From Magnolia sinica (Eukaryota; Streptophyta; Magnoliopsida; Magnoliales; Magnoliaceae), in contig NC_080583.1 of NCBI RefSeq assembly GCF_029962835.1, positions 2,961,001 to 3,025,000 on the forward strand: a DNA stretch of 64,000 bases, read 5' to 3'. Below the pieces are notes generated by a model. That model saw nothing but the letters and a program-made list of their open reading frames with translations. It did no database searches and was not told where the DNA came from. Positions 5,986-48,728 of this stretch are shown here, piece by piece (within the stretch, counting starts at the first letter, position 1; the number at the start of each line of letters is the position of its first letter). Made by a program: the position numbers and the translations under genes.

Positions 5986-6290
5986 TTCTAAATCATGCCA
6001 GCATTTTTATGTTTTCATTGATATGAGTGGGAATGAGTTTACCAATAATTTAGATGGCAAATGTTCTCTCCACATTCCTATGGATAAGCTTATTTGAGTT
6101 TTGGATCTACCTTATTTTTAGGCTCATGCTTTGCATGATCTAGCAAAATACACAGAGGAAAGATTTATCACAAACATCATCATGGCCTCAATGAGGTTCA
6201 GACGGTAAGGTCGAAATTCTGCATGGAGCAAAAGATGTGTCTGAAGCTAGGTGGGGCTCACTGAGATGTTTGTAAGAAATTCACCTCGAA

Positions 6291-15460: not shown

Positions 15461-15527
<67 letters not shown>
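15461..15527. repeat. (AT)n microsatellite
   Basis: About 33 uninterrupted AT units. Confidence 0.95.
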
Positions 15528-15528
<1 letters not shown>

Positions 15529-15692
15529 CTTGTAGCCCCATCCAATGCTTGTAATTTCATCATTTCAGTTAAAGTGATATTTCAATGGGCTTATTCCAAA
15601 TCCAGGGCATTTTAAATCTAGGGAATCTCTAACACTTTGGTTGGGCAATTGTAACAATCCATCTAATGGCTAACAAGATGGACACCCAGATC

Positions 15693-21115: not shown

Positions 21116-21442
21116 TCATGTTTGCATCATGCTGGCCCAAGTTGTACCCCCATTATATATTATCTGTGTGGATCAACTAATCATATGCCCAACATGCACA
21201 AAATTCTATTCCTAAAGTGCCTCATACCTCATAATCATAGACATTAAATAATAATAATAATAGTACAATATAGAAATCCTAACCAAAAAAAAAAAACCAG
21301 GATACAAAAGTACAGTCCAAAACATGGTTTTAAGACTCGGACGAGTCGACTCGGATTTGGTTAGACCTGATCTGGCTCAACAGCAGTGAGTCACAAGGAC
21401 GAGTCACCCCTGACAGAATATATACAGCAACCAAAACCCTAC

Positions 21443-23496
21443 TCAATTAAGTTGTGCATACCAGACCCCTTGGATCTTCACATCCTTTGGGGGCTTGGCC
21501 CCCAAATCCGTATCAGACGGCTGGATACTCTCAAACACTCCAATCACCTCCCCTGAGTCTGCCTTGCTCTTCGTTACACTCAACGTAATCTTCCCTGTAG
21601 ATGATGAGGGATCTTTTATATTCTCCTTCTTCAGCTCCTCCTCATCTCCCCTCCCTCCAGCCGGTAGAGCGACCGCATTATCATGCCCGGTGGACCCGCC
21701 TCGTCCCTTCGGATCCAGAAACGAAGAACCCCGATAAAACGGAACAAGGAACTGGCCTCCGAAACTCTCAGGCTTCCCAGATGCTACTAACTGTTTGATC
21801 GTGAACAAGAACGGGACGCGCTCTCCGCCTGGGAGCTGGACAGTGACAGCAGCGAGGTCGATGCCGTCTTTCTCTTCGAACTTGACAGTGCCGTCTGGAG
21901 AAACCTCGAACGGGCCCTCAATCTCGTGGAGGGTGTAGGTGAGACGGGTCATGAGCTTGGTTTTCTGGAACTCGGGCGGGGAGTTCTTGTTGACGCTCTC
22001 TGCCTTGACAGTGAAGGAGGTGGGTTCGAGGCAGAACTTCGTTAAGTTGTATTTGCCGGACTTGAAGGTGAATGAGTCGACTCCGCCTTCAATCGTGGGA
22101 CATTGGTTCGCCGTGCCTGTTCCCTTCACTTCCATGTATGTCTTGCTCTGTATCTCGTCGTAGGTCAGGCGCTTTGGTAATCCTTCAGCACTAGCTCCCT
22201 GCCAGATAAGAAGATTTCAAGCAGGTTGAGAGCCGTTACTCCTTTCAAAGAAGGGCGGGAATTGGGTTTTCTTTATTTATTCATGTATGTGGACCGTTGG
22301 ATTTGAAGGATCCGCTGTGAACCTAACAGCAACATGATCTGATTGGGAAGGAAAAAAGGAAAGAAAAAAGAGGTCATCTGATTGGGGGACTGTCATTGTG
22401 ATTTTAATAGTGGGGTCCACATTTTGGACGAGTCAGATGGCCTTCTATTTCTTCCCCCTAACATACGGCATATGTAGAATATCTGATCCGTTGAAAAGGT
22501 GGTCCACACCATGATGATCGGCTGATATTAAAATCACGCTGATCCGTACATAACACAGTATCAATATCAACGGACAGCAGGTTGTACGTACGACTTAGAA
22601 TTATAGTGTGGCCCACCCAATGTGCGCATCCTCCTGATTTTCGAACCAGGTGATTACAATGGTGTGGCCCATTTTATAATACGGCAAAGAGAACTGAGAC
22701 AACAAGGGACGCAGTTTGGCTAGGGACGCTGCTACTACCAAGGTCGTTAGTGGTCGGTGCTATGTGGACCCCACCATGATGTATGTGTTTTATCCACGCC
22801 GTCCATCCATTTTGAAAGATAATTTTATATCTTTATACCAAAAATTAGATGGATATAAATCTCAGGTGGGCCACACCATGGGAAAAAGTAGTGATTGAAT
22901 GTCCACCATTAAAAGCCTCCTAGGGCCCACTTTAATGGTTATTTGACATCTAACCTGTTGATTAGGTCATACAGACTTGGATGTAGGGAAAAATATATAT
23001 CAGCTTGATCCAAAACTTTTGTGGCCGCCAAGAATTTTTTAATGGTGGGCGATCAATCAACACTGTGTGGTCCACTTGAGATTTGGATCAACTTATTTTT
23101 GGGCTCATGCTATAAAATGATCTGGAAGAATGGGTGGACGGCATGGATGAAACACATACATCATGGTGGGGCCCACATAGCACCGACAACTAGCCATTAG
23201 CTAGTGGCAGGGCAGTAGCCAATCCGTCTCTGACAACAAGGGATGCATATTACACACCGCGCAACAAGGAGCGCTGACGTGGCAAGCACGAACCCGGCGA
23301 TCTTGGTGGCGTCGGCGCATTTCTGAGCCAAGTCTTTCAGTTCGGCTTGCAGCGAACAGGTCAACCTGGCGCCAGCCGGCTCGTAGCCGAAGGCCTTAGA
23401 CACCTGCGGAGTGGATCTCAGCTGGAGGCCGCTACAAGCCGTAACGCCGACCTTAGCCGGCTGCAAGAACGTAGCCGCTGCTTGAAGAGACGCCAT
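21443..23496 (-). CDS. psbO: PsbO, oxygen-evolving enhancer protein 1, two exons
   Basis: PsbO is the 33 kDa lumenal extrinsic subunit that stabilises the manganese cluster of photosystem II. Exon 1 is 23496-23256 and exon 2 is 22194-21443, joined across a 1061-nt GT-AG intron, giving 330 residues. Residues 1-83 form the bipartite targeting sequence: a chloroplast transit peptide ([10 protein letters not shown] start) then a thylakoid signal ([12 protein letters not shown]) ending at SSA before [11 protein letters not shown]. The mature part is 247 residues, the usual length. It keeps the two disulfide cysteines (in NQCPTI and KFCLEP), the GGERVPF and [16 protein letters not shown] blocks, and the C-terminal WYAQL. 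The splice pair was chosen because it preserves frame and family length at this point. No break is seen. The intron is half filled by a foldback element. Confidence 0.96.
22714..23231. mobile_element. Foldback element inside the psbO intron
   Basis: Almost the whole 518 bp is an inverted repeat. A left arm (about 22745-22930, GTCGGTGCTATGTGG then CACCATGATGTATG) pairs with a right arm (about 23015-23205, reading CATACATCATGGTG then CCCACATAGCACCGAC), with a loop of roughly 85 bases. It is flanked by near-identical 16-bp direct repeats, GACAACAAGGGAYGCA, at 22698-22713 and 23232-23247. It has no coding capacity. Long terminal inverted repeats recall Mutator-like elements, but the superfamily is not certain. 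Confidence 0.8.
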
Positions 23497-23760
23497 TTTC
23501 CTCGACCTTGGATCTCTCTCTGCTAAAACTTGGGAGATGGAGAAAGAGGGGGTAATATTGGTTGGCGCCGGGGTGCGAAGGATAAGAGACTGGATAAGGG
23601 AAATCTCATGTTCGAAGCTTTGAAGCTACGCCCCTCATGTCGCTTCTGCCACGTGGCGGCCCCTTGGAGGGTCTTGTGATATGGAGAGCAAATCCAGCTT
23701 CTGGATGGGACCCACATGGGGGGGTTTCTGGATGATCCCAACCGTCAATGTCCCACAGTT
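23497..23760 (-). promoter_or_regulatory. psbO promoter with G-box and paired I-boxes
   Basis: The region holds a perfect G-box core CCACGTGG at 23649-23656, two GATAAG I-box words at 23581-23586 and 23593-23598, and a CCAAT word on the coding strand near 23557-23562. G-box plus I-box pairs are known light-response modules in nuclear photosynthesis genes. I see no clear TATA box, which is common for photosystem genes. The pyrimidine-rich TCTCTCTCC leader precedes the start codon. Confidence 0.6.
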
Positions 23761-24359
23761 GCTGATCCTGGTCATCCGAACCAACGGTTGGAAGAAAATC
23801 TTATGAATGGTCCACAGTCAAATTGAATTGCCTGCGGATAAGGATATTGGGTGGTTGTGATTTTTGGATCATGGCCCATCCACGATCATCAAAGCCATTT
23901 GCACATTTCACTACAGCTGCGTGCTGCCTCACGTAGCACTTCGGCCACTGAACGATCATCCCGACCGTTCATCAATTATTTTTCATCATAATTGGGCAAT
24001 GTGAGAAAATGGACGGCTTTTAACTTGATTTGGGCTGTACATATGATCGCAGATTGGGATTGGGCCTCAATTTTCAGCCGGGTAACCAATTGGGCTAGGC
24101 CTGGGCCTGGGCCGTGTCTGCCTGTGGGCCTTTACATGTTTCACTGGGCCACTCTACCTTGAAACTTCAAAGCTGTGCTTTGACGGACACCGATTTTCTA
24201 CAACACTTGTTGAAGGGAGCCCAGAGCATGCGCAACAAAGGCCCCACCTTTGATGGATGTCTGTGCAACATCCACGTTCTAAGGAAAGAGCCAGGATGGG
24301 GATGGGACGCAGGGATAGATGTAATGATGTGAATCACTGTCTTCCTCAAGTGGATAATT
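23761..24359. other. Intergenic, upstream of psbO
   Basis: No second gene is recognised. A 72-residue open frame at 24114-24332 has no family features that I know. Confidence 0.4.
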
Positions 24360-27239: not shown

Positions 27240-27593
27240 GGTAGGATATTTCAGTTGGGGTTTATCGTAAGTAGGACATTCCCAAGTCCTTTAGTTCGAG
27301 TTAGATGCACGTCATGTTCTTATAATTAGTAGGACTTTCCCAAGTCCTTTTTAGTTGGAGTCACACGCATATAACGTGCATACAATTAGTTTCAACGTGA
27401 TTGGAATTTTGTGCTATTATATTTTCCAAGTAGTTAATATTATAAGTTTGGGTCCGTTGAATTGATGCCACATCGATTAATAGTGTTAGTAGAGAATCTT
27501 AAGGCATGGGTTTGAGATACATGTAATACTTATAAATAGTATCAATGGATTTGTGGAAGCCTTGTGAAGAGTTATAATTTTTAAAATGAAATC
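27240..27593 (+). repeat. Older LTR fragment, left part (host of the Tat element)
   Basis: This is LTR-like sequence with two TAGTAGGAC-TTCCCAAGTCC units. It breaks off at AAATC, where the Tat element is inserted, and resumes at 37748. The resumed part carries GTGAAGAGTCTAGAGAGC and GGTGATCAACCTCATCATG, matching 20400-21115. Confidence 0.55.
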
Positions 27594-28395
27594 TGTTAAT
27601 ACAAAAATCTGATCCACCCTCTTTAGACCTTCGAGTACCTGCACAGGAAGAAGACAAAGGAGACCCTGGCTAGAGCAGGGGACTCTCCGATGCCAAAGTC
27701 AGGCTAGAAATCTGGGTCTTATAATATTGAGGGGGTTTGGGAGAGTTTTTTGCGTACCCTTTATGTTGGAGACGTCCTCCTTTTAAAGGAATGAGAGGTC
27801 CCGCCGTACAAGAATTTTCTTCCGAATATCTTAGAGATTTGATTTAGTTGCAATTTGTTTATGTATGCTTCCCGATCCCGAGATTTTCGGGGTTGGAAAT
27901 CCTTTTACAAGATTTTCGGGATGGTGTTTATACTTACACTGTCTCTTCCTTGCTCGGCTCGGCCCTAACCGACTCTAGTGAGAGATGAGTCTCGGCTGGC
28001 TGCAAGGATAAGGCTTTTTGCCTTCTGTTGGATGAAATAGAGTCAGTCCGTAACCGATACCCCTTCTCACTCCGATAGCCGACACTACAACCGATTTACT
28101 ATGGGTCGGTTTTGTGATCGATCAGGTAACTTATAGCCTTGGGCCTTAATTGGTATCATTTAGACGTTGCTGGCTCATTATCCGAGATAACTTTATGCGT
28201 CTTATATATTTTGCCTATGGCTCTTGACTCTTTGAATCTCGTTCGGGATTCATTTCCTGCAATCCGAGCTAAGTCTCTCCTTTAGGCTTTGTCTTATCTC
28301 GGTCTAACCTGTTGCCTCGGAATCTCGGGCAGTGTCAGCAGAGTTGGTCCATTCCATAACTGGGTCTCCAGACTTGTCATATTTTTTCCCCAACA
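27594..28395 (-). repeat. 3' LTR of the Tat element
   Basis: 802 bp, bounded by TGTTAATAC and CCCCAACA, preceded by AAATC. Shared blocks with the other LTR include CCACCCTCTTTAGACC and GATTTTCGGGATGGTG. Confidence 0.92.
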
Positions 28396-36921: not shown

Positions 36922-36942
36922 TTTCCACAGACGGTGCCAAAC
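36922..36942 (-). other. Primer-binding site of the Tat element
   Basis: Just inside the 5' LTR the minus strand reads TTTGGCACCGTCTGTGG, a tRNA-3'-end-like TGG start of the kind found in Tat elements. The primer tRNA was not identified. Confidence 0.6.
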
Positions 36943-37747
36943 TGTTGATGCAAAAATCTAATCCACCCTCTTTAGACCTTCGAGTACCTGCACAAGAAGA
37001 CGACAAACGAGACCCTGGCTAGAGCAGAGGACCCTCCGATGCTAAAGTTAGGCTACGAATCTGGGTCTTATAGTATTGAGGGGGTTTTGGAGAGAGTTTT
37101 TTGCATAGCTTTTATGTTGGAGATGTCCTCCTTTTATAGGAATGGGAGGTCCCGCCATGCAGGGATTTTCTTCCGAACATCTCGGAGATTTGATTTACTT
37201 GCAATTTGTTTACGAATGCTTCTCGATCCTGAGATTTTCAGGGTCAGAAATCATTTTACAAGATTTTCGGGATGGTGTTTATGCTTACACCGTCTCTTTC
37301 TTGCTCGGCTCGACCCTAACCAACTCTAGTGAGAGATGAGTCTCAGCTGGCTGCAAGGATAAGGCTTTTTACCTTCTGTCGGACGAAATAGAGTCGGTCA
37401 GTAACCGATATCCCTTCTCACTCCAATAGCTAACACTACAACCGATTTACTATGGGCCGGTTTTGTGATTGATCAGGTGACTTATAGCTTTAGGACCTTA
37501 ATTGGTATCATTTAGACGTTGCTGGCTCATTATCCGAGACAATTTTATGCATCTTATATATTTTGTCTATGGCTCTTGACTCTTTGAATCTCGGTTGGGA
37601 TTCATTTCCTACAATCCGAGATAAGTCTCTCCTTTAGGCTTCGTTTTGTCTCGGTCTGACCTATTGCCTTAGAATCTCGGGCAGTGTCAGCAGAGTTGGT
37701 TCATTCCATAACCGGGTCTCCGGACTTGTCATATTTTTTTCCCAACA
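36943..37747 (-). repeat. 5' LTR of the Tat element
   Basis: 805 bp, bounded by TGTTGATGC and CCCAACA, followed by AAATC. It aligns along its length with 27594-28395 and is the 5' LTR in the element's own orientation. Confidence 0.92.
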
Positions 37748-42870: not shown

Positions 42871-43421
42871 CTAGATCCCCCTTCTAACTGTGCCTAAACT
42901 CATCCTGTCGAGGAAGAGGAGGCCCCTGGGGATCGGCGGGAGATCAGCATGGCCCAAGAATAGAGCTGACCTTTGGTTTTCGCTCCCCATACGGGCCAAA
43001 GCATACGCCGGCCCATTCCTTTCTCTAAGGATATGAACAAATTGAATGTTACTTGTTATGTTGAGGTTCTTGATTCTATCGATCCAACACTTCCATTTCC
43101 AACCCGGAACGGATCGACCAGAAAGGAAATTCACTACTAGAAGAGAGTCAGATCCACTAAAATGTTGGAGTATCCCAGTTGGAGACAATGTTGAAGACCA
43201 TCATGAATGACCCGCAGCTCCGCTCTTGTGTTGGAGGCGACACCATAGCCAGCATAAAAACTGAAGTAGAACTCCCCTTTCTCCCCTCTGCAAACTCCCC
43301 CTCCCCTTGCTGCGCTTGGGTTACCTCTGGAAGAACCATCTACGTTCAATTTAAACCAGCTCGGCGGGGTTTTCCTCCAAATCACCACCTAGGACGAACT
43401 TCTTGGCTGAGGAAGTGCTGA
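42871..43421 (-). pseudogene. LINE RNase H domain, broken
   Basis: 43137-43388 has FKLNVDGSSRGNPSAARGGGV (first catalytic Asp) and NTRAELRVIHDGLQHCLQLG (catalytic Glu). 42871-43188 has the later part, with NIQFVHILRERNGPAYALARMG. The two lie in different frames. Such RNase H tails are common in plant L1 elements. Confidence 0.85.
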
Positions 43422-43540
43422 AATACCGATGGCTGCTAGAGCCTTGCTAGACGAGCCTAGCCGAGAACGTGGAATGCCCCATCTGTTGATGAAGAAACGA
43501 ACCCAGCCACTGATGCGGGAGATGAGCACACCCACCTTCA

Positions 43541-44320
43541 TCAACACCCCTTTGTAGCGCGCCGCATTCCTACTCTTCCAAAGCTCCCAAAGAATAACAC
43601 AAGGCAAAATCTTCTTGAAAGGTGTCGATGGCCCATTCGATGAGCGGGATCTCCACCAGTGGGCAACCAGCCTTCCACTGAGGGGAAATGGGCCATCTGA
43701 ATGTTGAAAATGATGGAGAAATGGGACCAGACATCTCTCGTGTGCTTACTCTGTAAGAAAAGGTAGATGGAAGTCTCAACCGCAGGTCTTAGCCTCTGAC
43801 AAGGATCGTTAATGCAACAGCAGCAGCGGGACGCGAGATGGATGCCACGAGATTGAACACTCACATCAACTGGAAGGGCACCCTTGAGAATCCTCCAAAT
43901 TAATAGAGAAATCTTTAGAGGGATTTTGACGTTCTAGATTTTATCTCCCCAGGTTGTGTCGGGCCTGCGCGTCCTGCTGATATCCCAGGCCGATGCAATT
44001 GTGAAGGTACCTGAAGGGTTTCGCGGCCAGATAGGTAAGTCAGGGCCTTCAGATAAACAATGTCCCCCTTGGAAGATGGAGGCAAGGTCCTGTTGGGACA
44101 GAACGGTCAGAACCGCTGAAGGCGGAAGCGGGCCGGATTTGTCGAGGAAATCTTTGATTTGAAGGTTCCGTAGAGACGGTCTGATGGAGCAAATCGCCCT
44201 ACTTTCCAAAGAACCCAAACCGGTCCAATTCACTCGCCATAAGCTCCGATTTCCTTCTCCGATTTGCCATTGAATGTGAGAATCTAGAACCGAAAAGAGG
44301 GCTCGAATTCTCTTCCACAA
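43541..44320 (-). pseudogene. LINE C-terminal linker, zf-RVT-like
   Basis: The segment at 43934-44320 reads LPIWPRNPSGTFTIASAWDISR, like the W-x-x-x-x-x-G-x-F-S/T-V-x-S-A motif preceding the zf-RVT region of plant LINEs. Downstream frames are disrupted. Confidence 0.65.
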
Positions 44321-44466
44321 TGGAGAAAAAGAGGAAGAGGATTGGAGGTGGCCCTCTCCCTGGAGGTCTTGGGAATATCTGGACTGAATAAACGTGCATC
44401 ACATCCCTTGTTAAGTACTAAAACTTCACAGTCCAAGCCATTTTCAAGCGGAACGCAGCCATGACG

Positions 44467-45626
44467 TTAAACAAGGTCCTGATGCCCATCCCCCCTTCCA
44501 GCTTTGGAGCAGTAATTTGCTTCCAACTCCTCCAATGCAGCTTTTTCCTGCCATCCGCCTAGCCCCAAAGAAAGTCTGCAAAGTGTTTTTCCAAAATCTT
44601 CAATACCATTAAGGAAAAGTAATGTGTCATCTGCAAAGAGGAGATGAGACACCACTACATTTCGACGGCGGCCTTTGAAAGGGAGGTAAGAACTAGAACC
44701 CACCAGCTTATTGAAGCCTCGGCTGAGCACCTCAGAGGCTAAAATGAATAAGCTAGGGGAGAGCGGGTCCCCCTGGCGGAGACCCCGAGTGGACTTAAAG
44801 AAGCCTCCTGATTCACCGTTAATTAGAATCGAGAACCAACAGTTGCTCTAATAGCGTTCCACGAGTGTAAACCAGGTAGTGGAGAAACCAAAGCACCCGA
44901 GCACCCTTTTGAGGAATAGTCAATCCACTCTGTCATAAGCTTTCTCCATGTCCAGTTTCACCACGATGTTCACGCATTTGACTTTTCTATTCAACTCTCT
45001 AAGAAGCTCTTGGGAGAGGACTATGCTTTCAGAGATGGAGCGGCCCTGGATGAAAGCACCTTACTCCAGAGAGATCAGCTTGGGCAGCAACTTACTCAAT
45101 TTGTTGGCAATGATTTTCGCAAAAATCTTATAAACCATGTTGCAAAGACTATGAAAAACGATTTGGCACTGCCTTCTTAAGAATGAGGGCAATTAGGGTA
45201 GAAGTGAAAGCCTTAAGCATAGAGCCTCCTTCGAACAGAAAGGTTGCTGCTTTGAATAAATCCTGCCCCACAATTTCCCAACACCCAGTAAAGAAAGCGC
45301 CGAAAAATCCGTTCGGGCCCGCTGCCTCATCTCTTGGGATAATGTTAATCGCCTGCTGCACTTCCTGGATTGTAGGGTCGGCCATGAGCTGAGCGTTGTC
45401 CTCTGCCAACACTAAGGGAGGGGATGGAAGAGAGGAGATCATCCCCCTGATCTACCTCACCTGCGGAGAAACGACGATGAAAATGTCTGGCTGCCTCATG
45501 TTTGAGTTCCCCTTGCGAGTCGACAGTCCGACCAGAATCCAGTCTGATGGAGGTGATAATAGCTCTCCTAGCCAGCTCAAACGCTGACGCATGGAAGAAG
45601 GCAGTGTTCATGTTGCCTTTCTCCAA
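44467..45626 (-). pseudogene. LINE reverse transcriptase domain, broken
   Basis: Recognisable blocks are AAGPNGFFGAFFTGCWEIV, LIALILKK and the catalytic SHLLFADDTLLFLNG, in order on the minus strand. The frame changes several times between them, and the stretch between the two blocks has stops. The sequence is typical of non-LTR plant elements. Confidence 0.85.
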
Positions 45627-46110
45627 CCAGTTGTTCCTAGCTTTCTGTTTCTAGAAAGTTTCCTCCATAAGCTCCAAGTGGGAGAGGGAGGCTCTTGCTT
45701 CCAAAAGCTGCGGGATTAAGATCTGTAACTGGCCCCTTCTCTTGCTAAAGAATGTCTTCCAAGGCTGTTAGCCCTTCTTCGGCATGTTTAACTGCTGGAA
45801 AGATGTTCCCAAATTCCTCTCTGTTCTAGCACTTCAACCGCGTTTTAACAGCCTTGAGTTTGATAAGGATGTTGATCATGGGGTGGGGGTTTTCAGCTGA
45901 TGACCAGGCTGCCTTCACCAAAGGGAGGAAAGCATCGTGGAGGAGCTACATCTGCTGGAAGCAGAAAGGTTTTGGGCTAGAAAACTGCTGACTAGGGAAT
46001 ACAAGTAACAATGGGGCATGGTCAGAGTTATGGTGAGGGAGATGGCATACCTGAAAGGAGGGGAATGAGCTGCTCCAAGCCGCATTGCATAGCACCCGAT
46101 CAAGCCTTGC

Positions 46111-46604
46111 CTAAACCCGAGCCGAGCCAACCTGGTTATTGGACCAAGTAAACCTACTGCCCAGAAAACCAGCATCCAGGAGACCCGCATTGTTAATGGC
46201 GTCCACAAAATCTCTGGAGCTTCCACTGTCGAACCTCCTTCTGCTACGCCTCTTTGAAGCATCAATGACAGCGTTGAAGTCGCCACCTAAGGCCCAAGGG
46301 CCTTGCACAGATCTGGACAACACTGCAACATCCTCCCAAAGAGTTCTTCTTTGGATTCTCGAACATCTCACATAGACCGCAGACAATGTGATCAGGTTGT
46401 TGGATTGCTGAAGGCTCAATGTCAAGGAGATCATTTGATTTGTCGAGGAAACCCTGGAAACAGAGAGGACTGAAATTTGGAAAATATCCATATCTTACCC
46501 CCAACCTCCACATTGGAGTAGGAATAATGGAAACCAAGGTGGAGGCCGATCTCAATTCGCTGGGAATCCCTGATCATGGGTTCAAGGATAGCCACAATCC
46601 CTGA
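46111..46604 (-). pseudogene. LINE endonuclease domain, truncated
   Basis: It contains WALGGDFNAVIDASKRR and FLGSRFTWSNNQ, which match the C-terminal motifs of apurinic/apyrimidinic-type endonucleases. Residues upstream are out of frame and the N-terminal third is absent. It stands at the 5' end of the LINE copy. Confidence 0.8.
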
Positions 46605-47890: not shown

Positions 47891-48404
47891 AGTTCTATGC
47901 GGTCAAGCTCATGGGAACTTCCCATGAGCTCTAGTTGTATGGGCCCCACCATGATGTGTGTTGAAACATCAACACCGTGCATTTGATGGGTCCCCTTTAA
48001 ATTATGGGATATCCCAAAAATCAGTTGTACACGGAACTCAGGTGCACAATACCATCTAAAATCATATGAAGACATGCTAAAACATATAAAAGCACTTGGT
48101 GGGGGCCACTTGAAACTTGGTCTGACCCCTCATCCAAGTGGGACACACATAATGGATGGGCTAGATTTGTGAACGACATCTCGGCGGGCCCAAAAAAATG
48201 ATTATGAATGTTTTAACAGGAGGATAACCCCTCTCAACTTTTGTACGTGGTGTGGCCCACAAAGGTCATGGATTGACTTGATTTTAAGCCCAAGTCCCAC
48301 TATGGAATGGTGCATCTGATTGATGGGGTAGATGTTCGACATGCATCATGGTGGGGCCCACACAACCTCATGGGAAGTTCTCGTGAGCTTGACCGCATAG
48401 AGCT
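47891..48404. mobile_element. TIR element nested in the hAT-like element
   Basis: The left end AGTTCTATGCGGTCAAGCTC is the inverse of the right end GAGCTTGACCGCATAGAGCT, and the match runs on through CATGGGAACTTCCCATGAG and GGGCCCCACCATGATG. It lies between AT-rich stretches, so its target duplication cannot be read. Confidence 0.75.
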
Positions 48405-48409
48405 ATTTC

Positions 48410-48412
<3 letters not shown>

Positions 48413-48477
<65 letters not shown>
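48413..48477. repeat. (AT)n microsatellite
   Basis: About 32 AT units directly after the nested TIR element. Confidence 0.95.
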
Positions 48478-48480
<3 letters not shown>

Positions 48481-48728
48481 AATATATAAATATTTATAAA
48501 ATATTTATATTAAGTGAACCCTATCCAAGTGGAATCAATTCGAACCGAGTTGAGTTTGGATGAAGTTCCAAGTCGAGCTCAGACTCCACTCGAATAATTT
48601 TTCAAGCTAAAAAAATCAGCTCAACTTGGCTCAAACCCAATTTCGAGCCGAGTTGAGTCGAGCTTTTCTAAGTTGAGTTGAGTGAGTTAATCAACCTAAC
48701 TTGATTTGTGTACAGCTCTAGGATCGAC

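Follow-up and report, generated by a model that had tools for sequence, protein, structure and literature searches.

A foldback element in the coding-region intron of one of two psbO genes of Magnolia sinica: probable origin as a Mutator-type MITE

According to the part of a survey cited here (PMC12550479), Mutator accounts for 41.5% of the MITEs in 207 plant genomes; in the same part, expression was raised, not lowered, where a gene had a MITE in its promoter, an intron, or the downstream region. Descriptions of MULE families such as MuTAnT include 9-nt duplications and long foldback arms; where these elements have inserted into transcribed sequence, the sites are in UTRs or introns (excerpts of PMC4486113). 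The transcripts of MITEs can fold into hairpins from which 24-nt siRNAs are produced; of 634 Arabidopsis inverted repeats located near genes, about 486 give rise to siRNAs of this size (excerpts of a review, PMC12595863). Introns rich in siRNAs have been termed "sirtrons" (excerpt of PMC5260113). In rice, siRNA-linked repression by an intronic MITE has been described for EUI, and IBM2 is needed for genes with heterochromatic introns (both as given in the cited passages of PMC7145194, the former as a citation). In sugarcane, small RNAs arise from the intronic AddIn-MITE, and a similar case in a POPDK intron is cited; in leaves of sorghum and maize, hardly any small RNAs, or none, mapped to AddIn-MITE (excerpts of PMC6331000).

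The locus described here lies in a 64,000-nt stretch of the Magnolia sinica genome (contig NC_080583.1; referred to here as the window). The foldback element in the intron of its psbO gene is real, and its limits are corrected below. The element is very probably an ordinary non-autonomous Mutator-type foldback MITE that transposed into one of two psbO introns, was flanked by a 9-bp duplication, and later decayed.

Limits, ends, and relatives of the element

We searched the genome (1.84 Gb; 127 contigs) for copies and set the element ends from an alignment of the window copy with 39 other copies fetched with their flanks. In this comparison, the start of the element is at 22707 and not at 22714, as a preliminary description had it; the end that it gave, 23231, stands. 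The terminal inverted repeats GGACGCGGTTTGGCTA and GGAAACGGATTGGCTA are common to the copies in the 40-copy alignment, and the profile match of the psbO-intron element spans positions 1 to 528 of the 529-position model. The element is on the plus strand in family orientation, and psbO is transcribed from the opposite strand (Table 1).

Table 1. Features of the psbO locus and its foldback element (window positions)
Feature	Position	Strand	Basis or detail
psbO exon 1 (coding part)	23254..23496	-	Translation; PsbO precursor match; putative in-frame GTAATA donor
Only intron of psbO coding region	22199..23253	-	Exon ends; putative donor
psbO exon 2 with stop codon	21443..22198	-	PF01716 (manganese-stabilising protein family), E 2e-95; ORF
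Full-length Mutator-type foldback MITE (probable class), 525 nt, non-coding	22707..23231	+ (family orientation)	Alignment with 39 other genomic copies
Left target-site duplication, GACAACAAG	22698..22706	.	9/9 identical to right copy
Right target-site duplication, GACAACAAG	23232..23240	.	Perfect 9-bp pair with left copy
Left terminal inverted repeat, GGACGCAGTTTGGCTA	22707..22722	+	Family form GGACGCGGTTTGGCTA
Right terminal inverted repeat, reverse complement AGAGACGGATTGGCTA	23216..23231	-	Family form GGAAACGGATTGGCTA
38-bp uninterrupted helix, one side	22753..22790	+	Predicted; minimum-energy fold of transcript strand
38-bp uninterrupted helix, other side	23150..23187	+	Predicted; minimum-energy fold of transcript strand
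Second, weaker inverted repeat in same intron	22500..22671	+	52-nt arms, 71%

Flanking 16-bp repeats had also been reported. A direct repeat of this length is present there (94% identical), but the duplication is only 9 bp: the repeat consists of the perfect 9-bp duplication plus 7 bases in which the element start (GGACGCA) and the host (GGATGCA) agree at 6 of 7 positions. The 7-base extension is probably due to chance because the other 39 copies match at most 4 of 7 bases beyond the duplication, a result that also ruled out a target preference of the family behind the extra match. A 16-bp target-site duplication was ruled out, given that the family duplicates 9 bp.

Duplications with at least 7 of 9 identical bases flanked 19 of the 40 copies (psbO copy included) versus 6 of 1,560 mismatched flank pairs, and 11 of the 40 had a perfect 9/9 duplication. 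Because the flanks of two copies (L013 and L018) are nearly the same and these copies are not independent, the numbers of independent copies with a duplication are 18 (at least 7/9) and 10 (perfect). No duplication of at least 7/9 was seen in the other 21 copies with the ends fixed by the alignment. At the eight loci listed first for the exact terminus pattern, with shifts of up to 4 bases either way allowed, seven reached only 5 to 6 of 9 matches and one reached 8 of 9; five of these eight loci match the profile only partly (>30 positions missing).

The longest stop-to-stop frame lying mostly inside the element is 66 amino acids (aa), and the 142-aa frame of exon 1 extends 35 bases into the element end. 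The element thus combines the attributes of Mutator-type MITEs, i.e., shared terminal inverted repeats, a 9-bp duplication, short length, no coding capacity, and high copy number. We place it among the non-autonomous Mutator-type MITEs because its ends and the 9-bp duplications are common to other copies in the genome.

At least 40 copies (including the psbO copy) were found over most of the element, the other 39 at 88 to 92% identity. This count is a lower bound and the set is biased toward close relatives because only the best 40 of 11,717 first-look candidates were scored. The exact 25-base terminus pattern occurs at 290 genome sites (141 + 149), and its backwards control occurs at none. 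We derived a profile from the 40 aligned copies and applied it (E 1e-5) to 20 random 10-kb samples (200 kb; 20 of 40 regions drawn on 15 contigs). It matched 43 non-overlapping stretches, which were distributed over 15 of the 20 samples and made up 6.5% of their sequence; among these stretches, 13 run from model position 60 or lower to 470 or higher. The window itself contains 22 such stretches (10.2%), and the same profile gave no match on 264 kb of reversed sequence. Judged by these profile matches, the broad related group exceeds in size the narrow family containing the psbO copy. Since many matches cover only about positions 50 to 480 of the model, there may be several related MITE subfamilies that share this core and differ in their ends. 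The foldback core was seen without the ends of the psbO copy in the window and at random loci L050 to L069, and the sequences at window positions 6288 and 59538 start GAAGCGGATTG(T/C)GTACTGAGTAAC beside such cores. The wider family, which seems to fill several percent of the genome, may merit proper annotation.

The genome is rich in MULE transposase domains, even by a lower bound obtained from the best 150 of 1,104 candidates. A search for a MULE transposase sharing the ends of the MITE, in which 100 of the 290 terminus sites were set against 36 of the 150 transposase matches (contigs C1 to C5), found none; the nearest terminus-transposase pair among the matches listed was 420 kb apart. We propose that the MITE would have been mobilized in trans by a MULE transposase, that its insertion into the psbO intron would have generated the 9-bp target-site duplication, and that mutation after insertion would account for its decay.

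Other repeats were observed in the window. Within the psbO intron, the stretch from about 22470 to 22671 matches one random genomic locus (L067:4474-4678) at 70%, and the weaker inverted repeat located there (Table 1) is possibly another old MITE. Direct repeats at 27590 to 28395 and 36939 to 37747 (89 to 92% identity; about 9.35 kb apart) enclose matches to gag, reverse transcriptase, RNase H, and integrase (below cut-off), the layout of an LTR retrotransposon. On the minus strand, the stretch from 42874 to 46494 contains reverse transcriptase, zf-RVT, RNase-H-like, and endonuclease (below cut-off) fragments and is, by this domain content, a degenerate LINE-like element. At 15461 to 15541 and 48397 to 48487, inverted matches (64 to 67 nt; 97 to 100%) occur in several registers, pointing to simple short-unit repeats.

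The host gene and its paralogue

When the two exons are joined in concept, the resulting protein aligns with plant PsbO precursors from residue 2 to residue 331 of 332, which leaves room for one coding-region intron. The element ends, the PF01716 match of exon 2, and the precursor alignment agree in placing a full-length foldback element inside the only coding-region intron of psbO, as the preliminary description had proposed. By exon 2, the genome contains two psbO genes (3 candidates scored, 2 matches). The second, which we refer to as the paralogue (locus L049), is 92% identical to the window copy in exon 2 and has an intron at the same codon. The MITE is absent from this intron, where the best match of the element had an E value of 0.76. 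The paralogue intron cannot serve as an empty site because the two introns are too diverged to align.

The two genes differ at the splice donor. In the paralogue, GCG is followed by a conventional donor, GTATGT, versus CGGTGTGTAATATGC after GCG in the window copy. The latter has CG instead of GT at the donor position used by the paralogue (within 23245 to 23262). An in-frame donor, GTAATA (preceded by TGT), is located six bases downstream and is predicted to add Arg-Cys before the lumenal cleavage site. Two bases on lies GTGTGT; its use with the conserved acceptor would disrupt the reading frame, as judged by reading the sequence. We infer that GTAATA is the donor of the window copy, in which case 22 intron bases would be ahead of the first transcribed base of the MITE.

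We compared both gene copies with PsbO of pea, spruce, spinach, and Arabidopsis (entries 5xnl, 8c29, 3jcu, and 9i4t, respectively, which we take to belong to these plants). The window copy carries five changes (K134T, D172H, Y196L, Y253H, and P294A in precursor numbering; all within 21443 to 22198) at residues that are invariant in the paralogue and all four of these plants. Within the mature protein, the only region compared for pea and spruce, the paralogue is unchanged at such invariant residues. We also counted unique changes, i.e., those in one copy at positions where the other copy, spinach, and Arabidopsis are alike. In the mature part, there were 7 in the window copy versus 1 in the paralogue.

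These differences, together with the missing GT at the donor place of the paralogue, favor an alternative in which the window psbO is a duplicate that is decaying or has little expression, and the MITE just sits in a dying gene. However, the reading frame of the window copy is fully open, and the divergence between the two copies (dN, 0.064; dS, 0.80) indicates past constraint. Moreover, the distribution of unique changes is opposite in the transit part (3 in the window copy versus 5 in the paralogue) and not significant over the whole precursor (10 versus 6; chi-square, 1.0). We regard a dying duplicate as possible but rather unlikely.

The element had been presented as part of a very highly transcribed gene. 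This is doubtful for the window copy: given the paralogue, the donor change, and the five residue changes, high transcription cannot be read from the name of the gene. Under the preferred reading of an ordinary MITE insertion, the MITE would leave with the intron at splicing and would have no special role.

Hairpin, small RNAs, and splicing

The inverted arms are present, although not at the length of roughly 185 bases each that was first given for them. Positions 22748 to 22851 pair with 23089 to 23192 (104 nt ungapped; 84% complementary), and shorter paired stretches occur inside. The stem predicted for the psbO (minus) strand extends from 23228/22708 in to 23021/22930, with 90 nt inside the innermost pair; the predicted arm lengths are about 208 and 223 nt, and the arms take up most of the MITE, as in a foldback element. 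RNA folding thus predicts the long hairpin that had been proposed for the psbO pre-mRNA, with a 38-bp helix (Table 1) and an energy of -242.2 kcal/mol for the transcript strand of the MITE. The mean for shuffled sequences was -132.3 kcal/mol, and the resulting z of -17.0, with 0 of 100 shuffles as stable, excludes chance for the foldback.

The consensus of the family folds more stably (transcript strand, -325.6 kcal/mol). The psbO copy differs from it by 34 substitutions at 525 compared sites (6.5%) and ranks 30th of 40 copies by divergence and 32nd by the folding energy of the transcript strand. From the consensus, we generated 200 simulated copies, each with 34 random substitutions plus 4 deletions. 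The simulated energies averaged -248.8 kcal/mol (sd, 14.3), and 70 of the 200 copies were as weak as the psbO copy or weaker, in a comparison for which the consensus was derived from the copies most like the psbO copy. Under this model, the decay of the hairpin is as expected from neutral drift, and the simulation gave no sign of selection keeping the hairpin. Given the 6.5% distance from the consensus and a weakness that matches that of random substitutions, nothing shows that the fold has been kept. From this neutrality under the model, we argue that the MITE would have no function in the psbO intron.

Dicing of the hairpin is possible because the 38-bp uninterrupted helix remains, and production of small RNAs is, by analogy with other MITEs, a known possibility in general. 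A more specific alternative is that the psbO intron is a working sirtron, i.e., an siRNA locus at which the hairpin would be diced into mostly 24-nt products that direct methylation in cis, on the intron itself, and in trans, on related copies. The long hairpin with its perfect helix is what such a locus would contain, and the excerpts cited here provide precedents in Arabidopsis inverted repeats (PMC12595863), rice EUI (PMC7145194), and sugarcane (PMC6331000). Against these stand the results for AddIn-MITE in sorghum and maize (PMC6331000) and the raised expression of genes with MITEs (PMC12550479), which make the precedents mixed as far as these excerpts go. In addition, the same siRNAs could come from related copies (290 exact termini; 6.5% of the sample), the hairpin is without a sign of being kept, and an Rfam search of positions 21400 to 24000 (E 0.1) returned no match. 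A working siRNA locus is therefore distinctly unlikely in our judgment. If the element is an ordinary MITE, as we favor, any small RNAs from it would be incidental, of the 24-nt kind usual for plant MITEs, and redundant with those of other copies.

The preliminary description had also suggested an effect on splicing, for which we found little support. In folds of 120 nt of exon 1 plus nearly the whole intron, the predicted unpaired probabilities of the donor GT were 0.04 and 0.29 with the MITE and 0.06 and 0.16 when it was left out, and those of the next four donor bases were 0.58 to 0.80 and 0.72 to 0.93, respectively. The MITE therewith modestly alters predicted donor access, in both directions. 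These modest differences, a donor change that may predate the insertion or be unrelated to it, and an ancestral donor assigned from the paralogue alone all weigh against a third alternative, in which insertion of the MITE just inside the donor helped to remodel splicing through loss of GT and use of GTAATA six bases downstream, with the addition of Arg-Cys. The contrast between GTATGT and CGGTGTGTAATATGC after GCG would fit such remodeling, as would the sequence reading that the downstream donor and the conserved acceptor retain both the frame and the ASA/EG site. Overall, we consider this history improbable.

That a hairpin precursor is transcribed from the psbO promoter and yields siRNAs that methylate the repeat family in trans is hardly credible; if true, it would tie the silencing of a family filling several percent of the genome to the expression of a photosynthetic gene. 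Nor would the hairpin be a unique tag for its repeat family, with profile matches (not each folded) present in 15 of the 20 random samples of 10 kb.

As an insertion, the ordinary MITE that we favor is nothing unusual. Its modest usefulness is that of a marked test case: its 34 differences from the consensus and the element-free paralogue in the same nucleus make unique small-RNA mapping and copy comparison feasible.

Comparison with described elements

Among the titles and parts of open-access literature covered, we found no report on such a MITE family in Magnolia or its kin and none on a MITE in a psbO intron. POPDK, the host gene in one of the sugarcane cases, is a photosynthetic (C4) gene. 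Both the AddIn-MITE (in an intron of a WD40 gene) and the sugarcane POPDK MITE resemble the psbO-intron element in that a MITE hairpin lies in an intron of a protein-coding gene (excerpts of PMC6331000). They differ in that small RNAs were mapped to them (PMC6331000, same excerpts), whereas the psbO-intron MITE is known from its sequence. The AddIn position is common to sugarcane, sorghum, and maize according to the cited part of that report (PMC6331000), whereas the psbO-intron MITE is known from one genome.

Sirtrons are alike in having an intronic foldback that potentially makes siRNAs, but they are defined by small-RNA evidence (excerpt of PMC5260113). The rice EUI MITE shares the intronic position and the potential siRNA output; repression is described for EUI (cited passage of PMC7145194).

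MuTAnT of Medicago truncatula, as described in the excerpts cited (PMC4486113), is likewise short and non-coding, with hairpin arms, a 9-nt duplication, and insertions in introns and UTRs. Its terminal sequence (PMC4486113, same excerpts) differs from that of the psbO-intron family, for which no matching transposase was found among the matches compared. MuTAnT has a (TA)n target preference (PMC4486113), whereas none is evident in the flanks of the psbO-family copies. Finally, 218 MuTAnT elements are given in the cited part of that report (PMC4486113), and the psbO-intron family probably comprises more copies.
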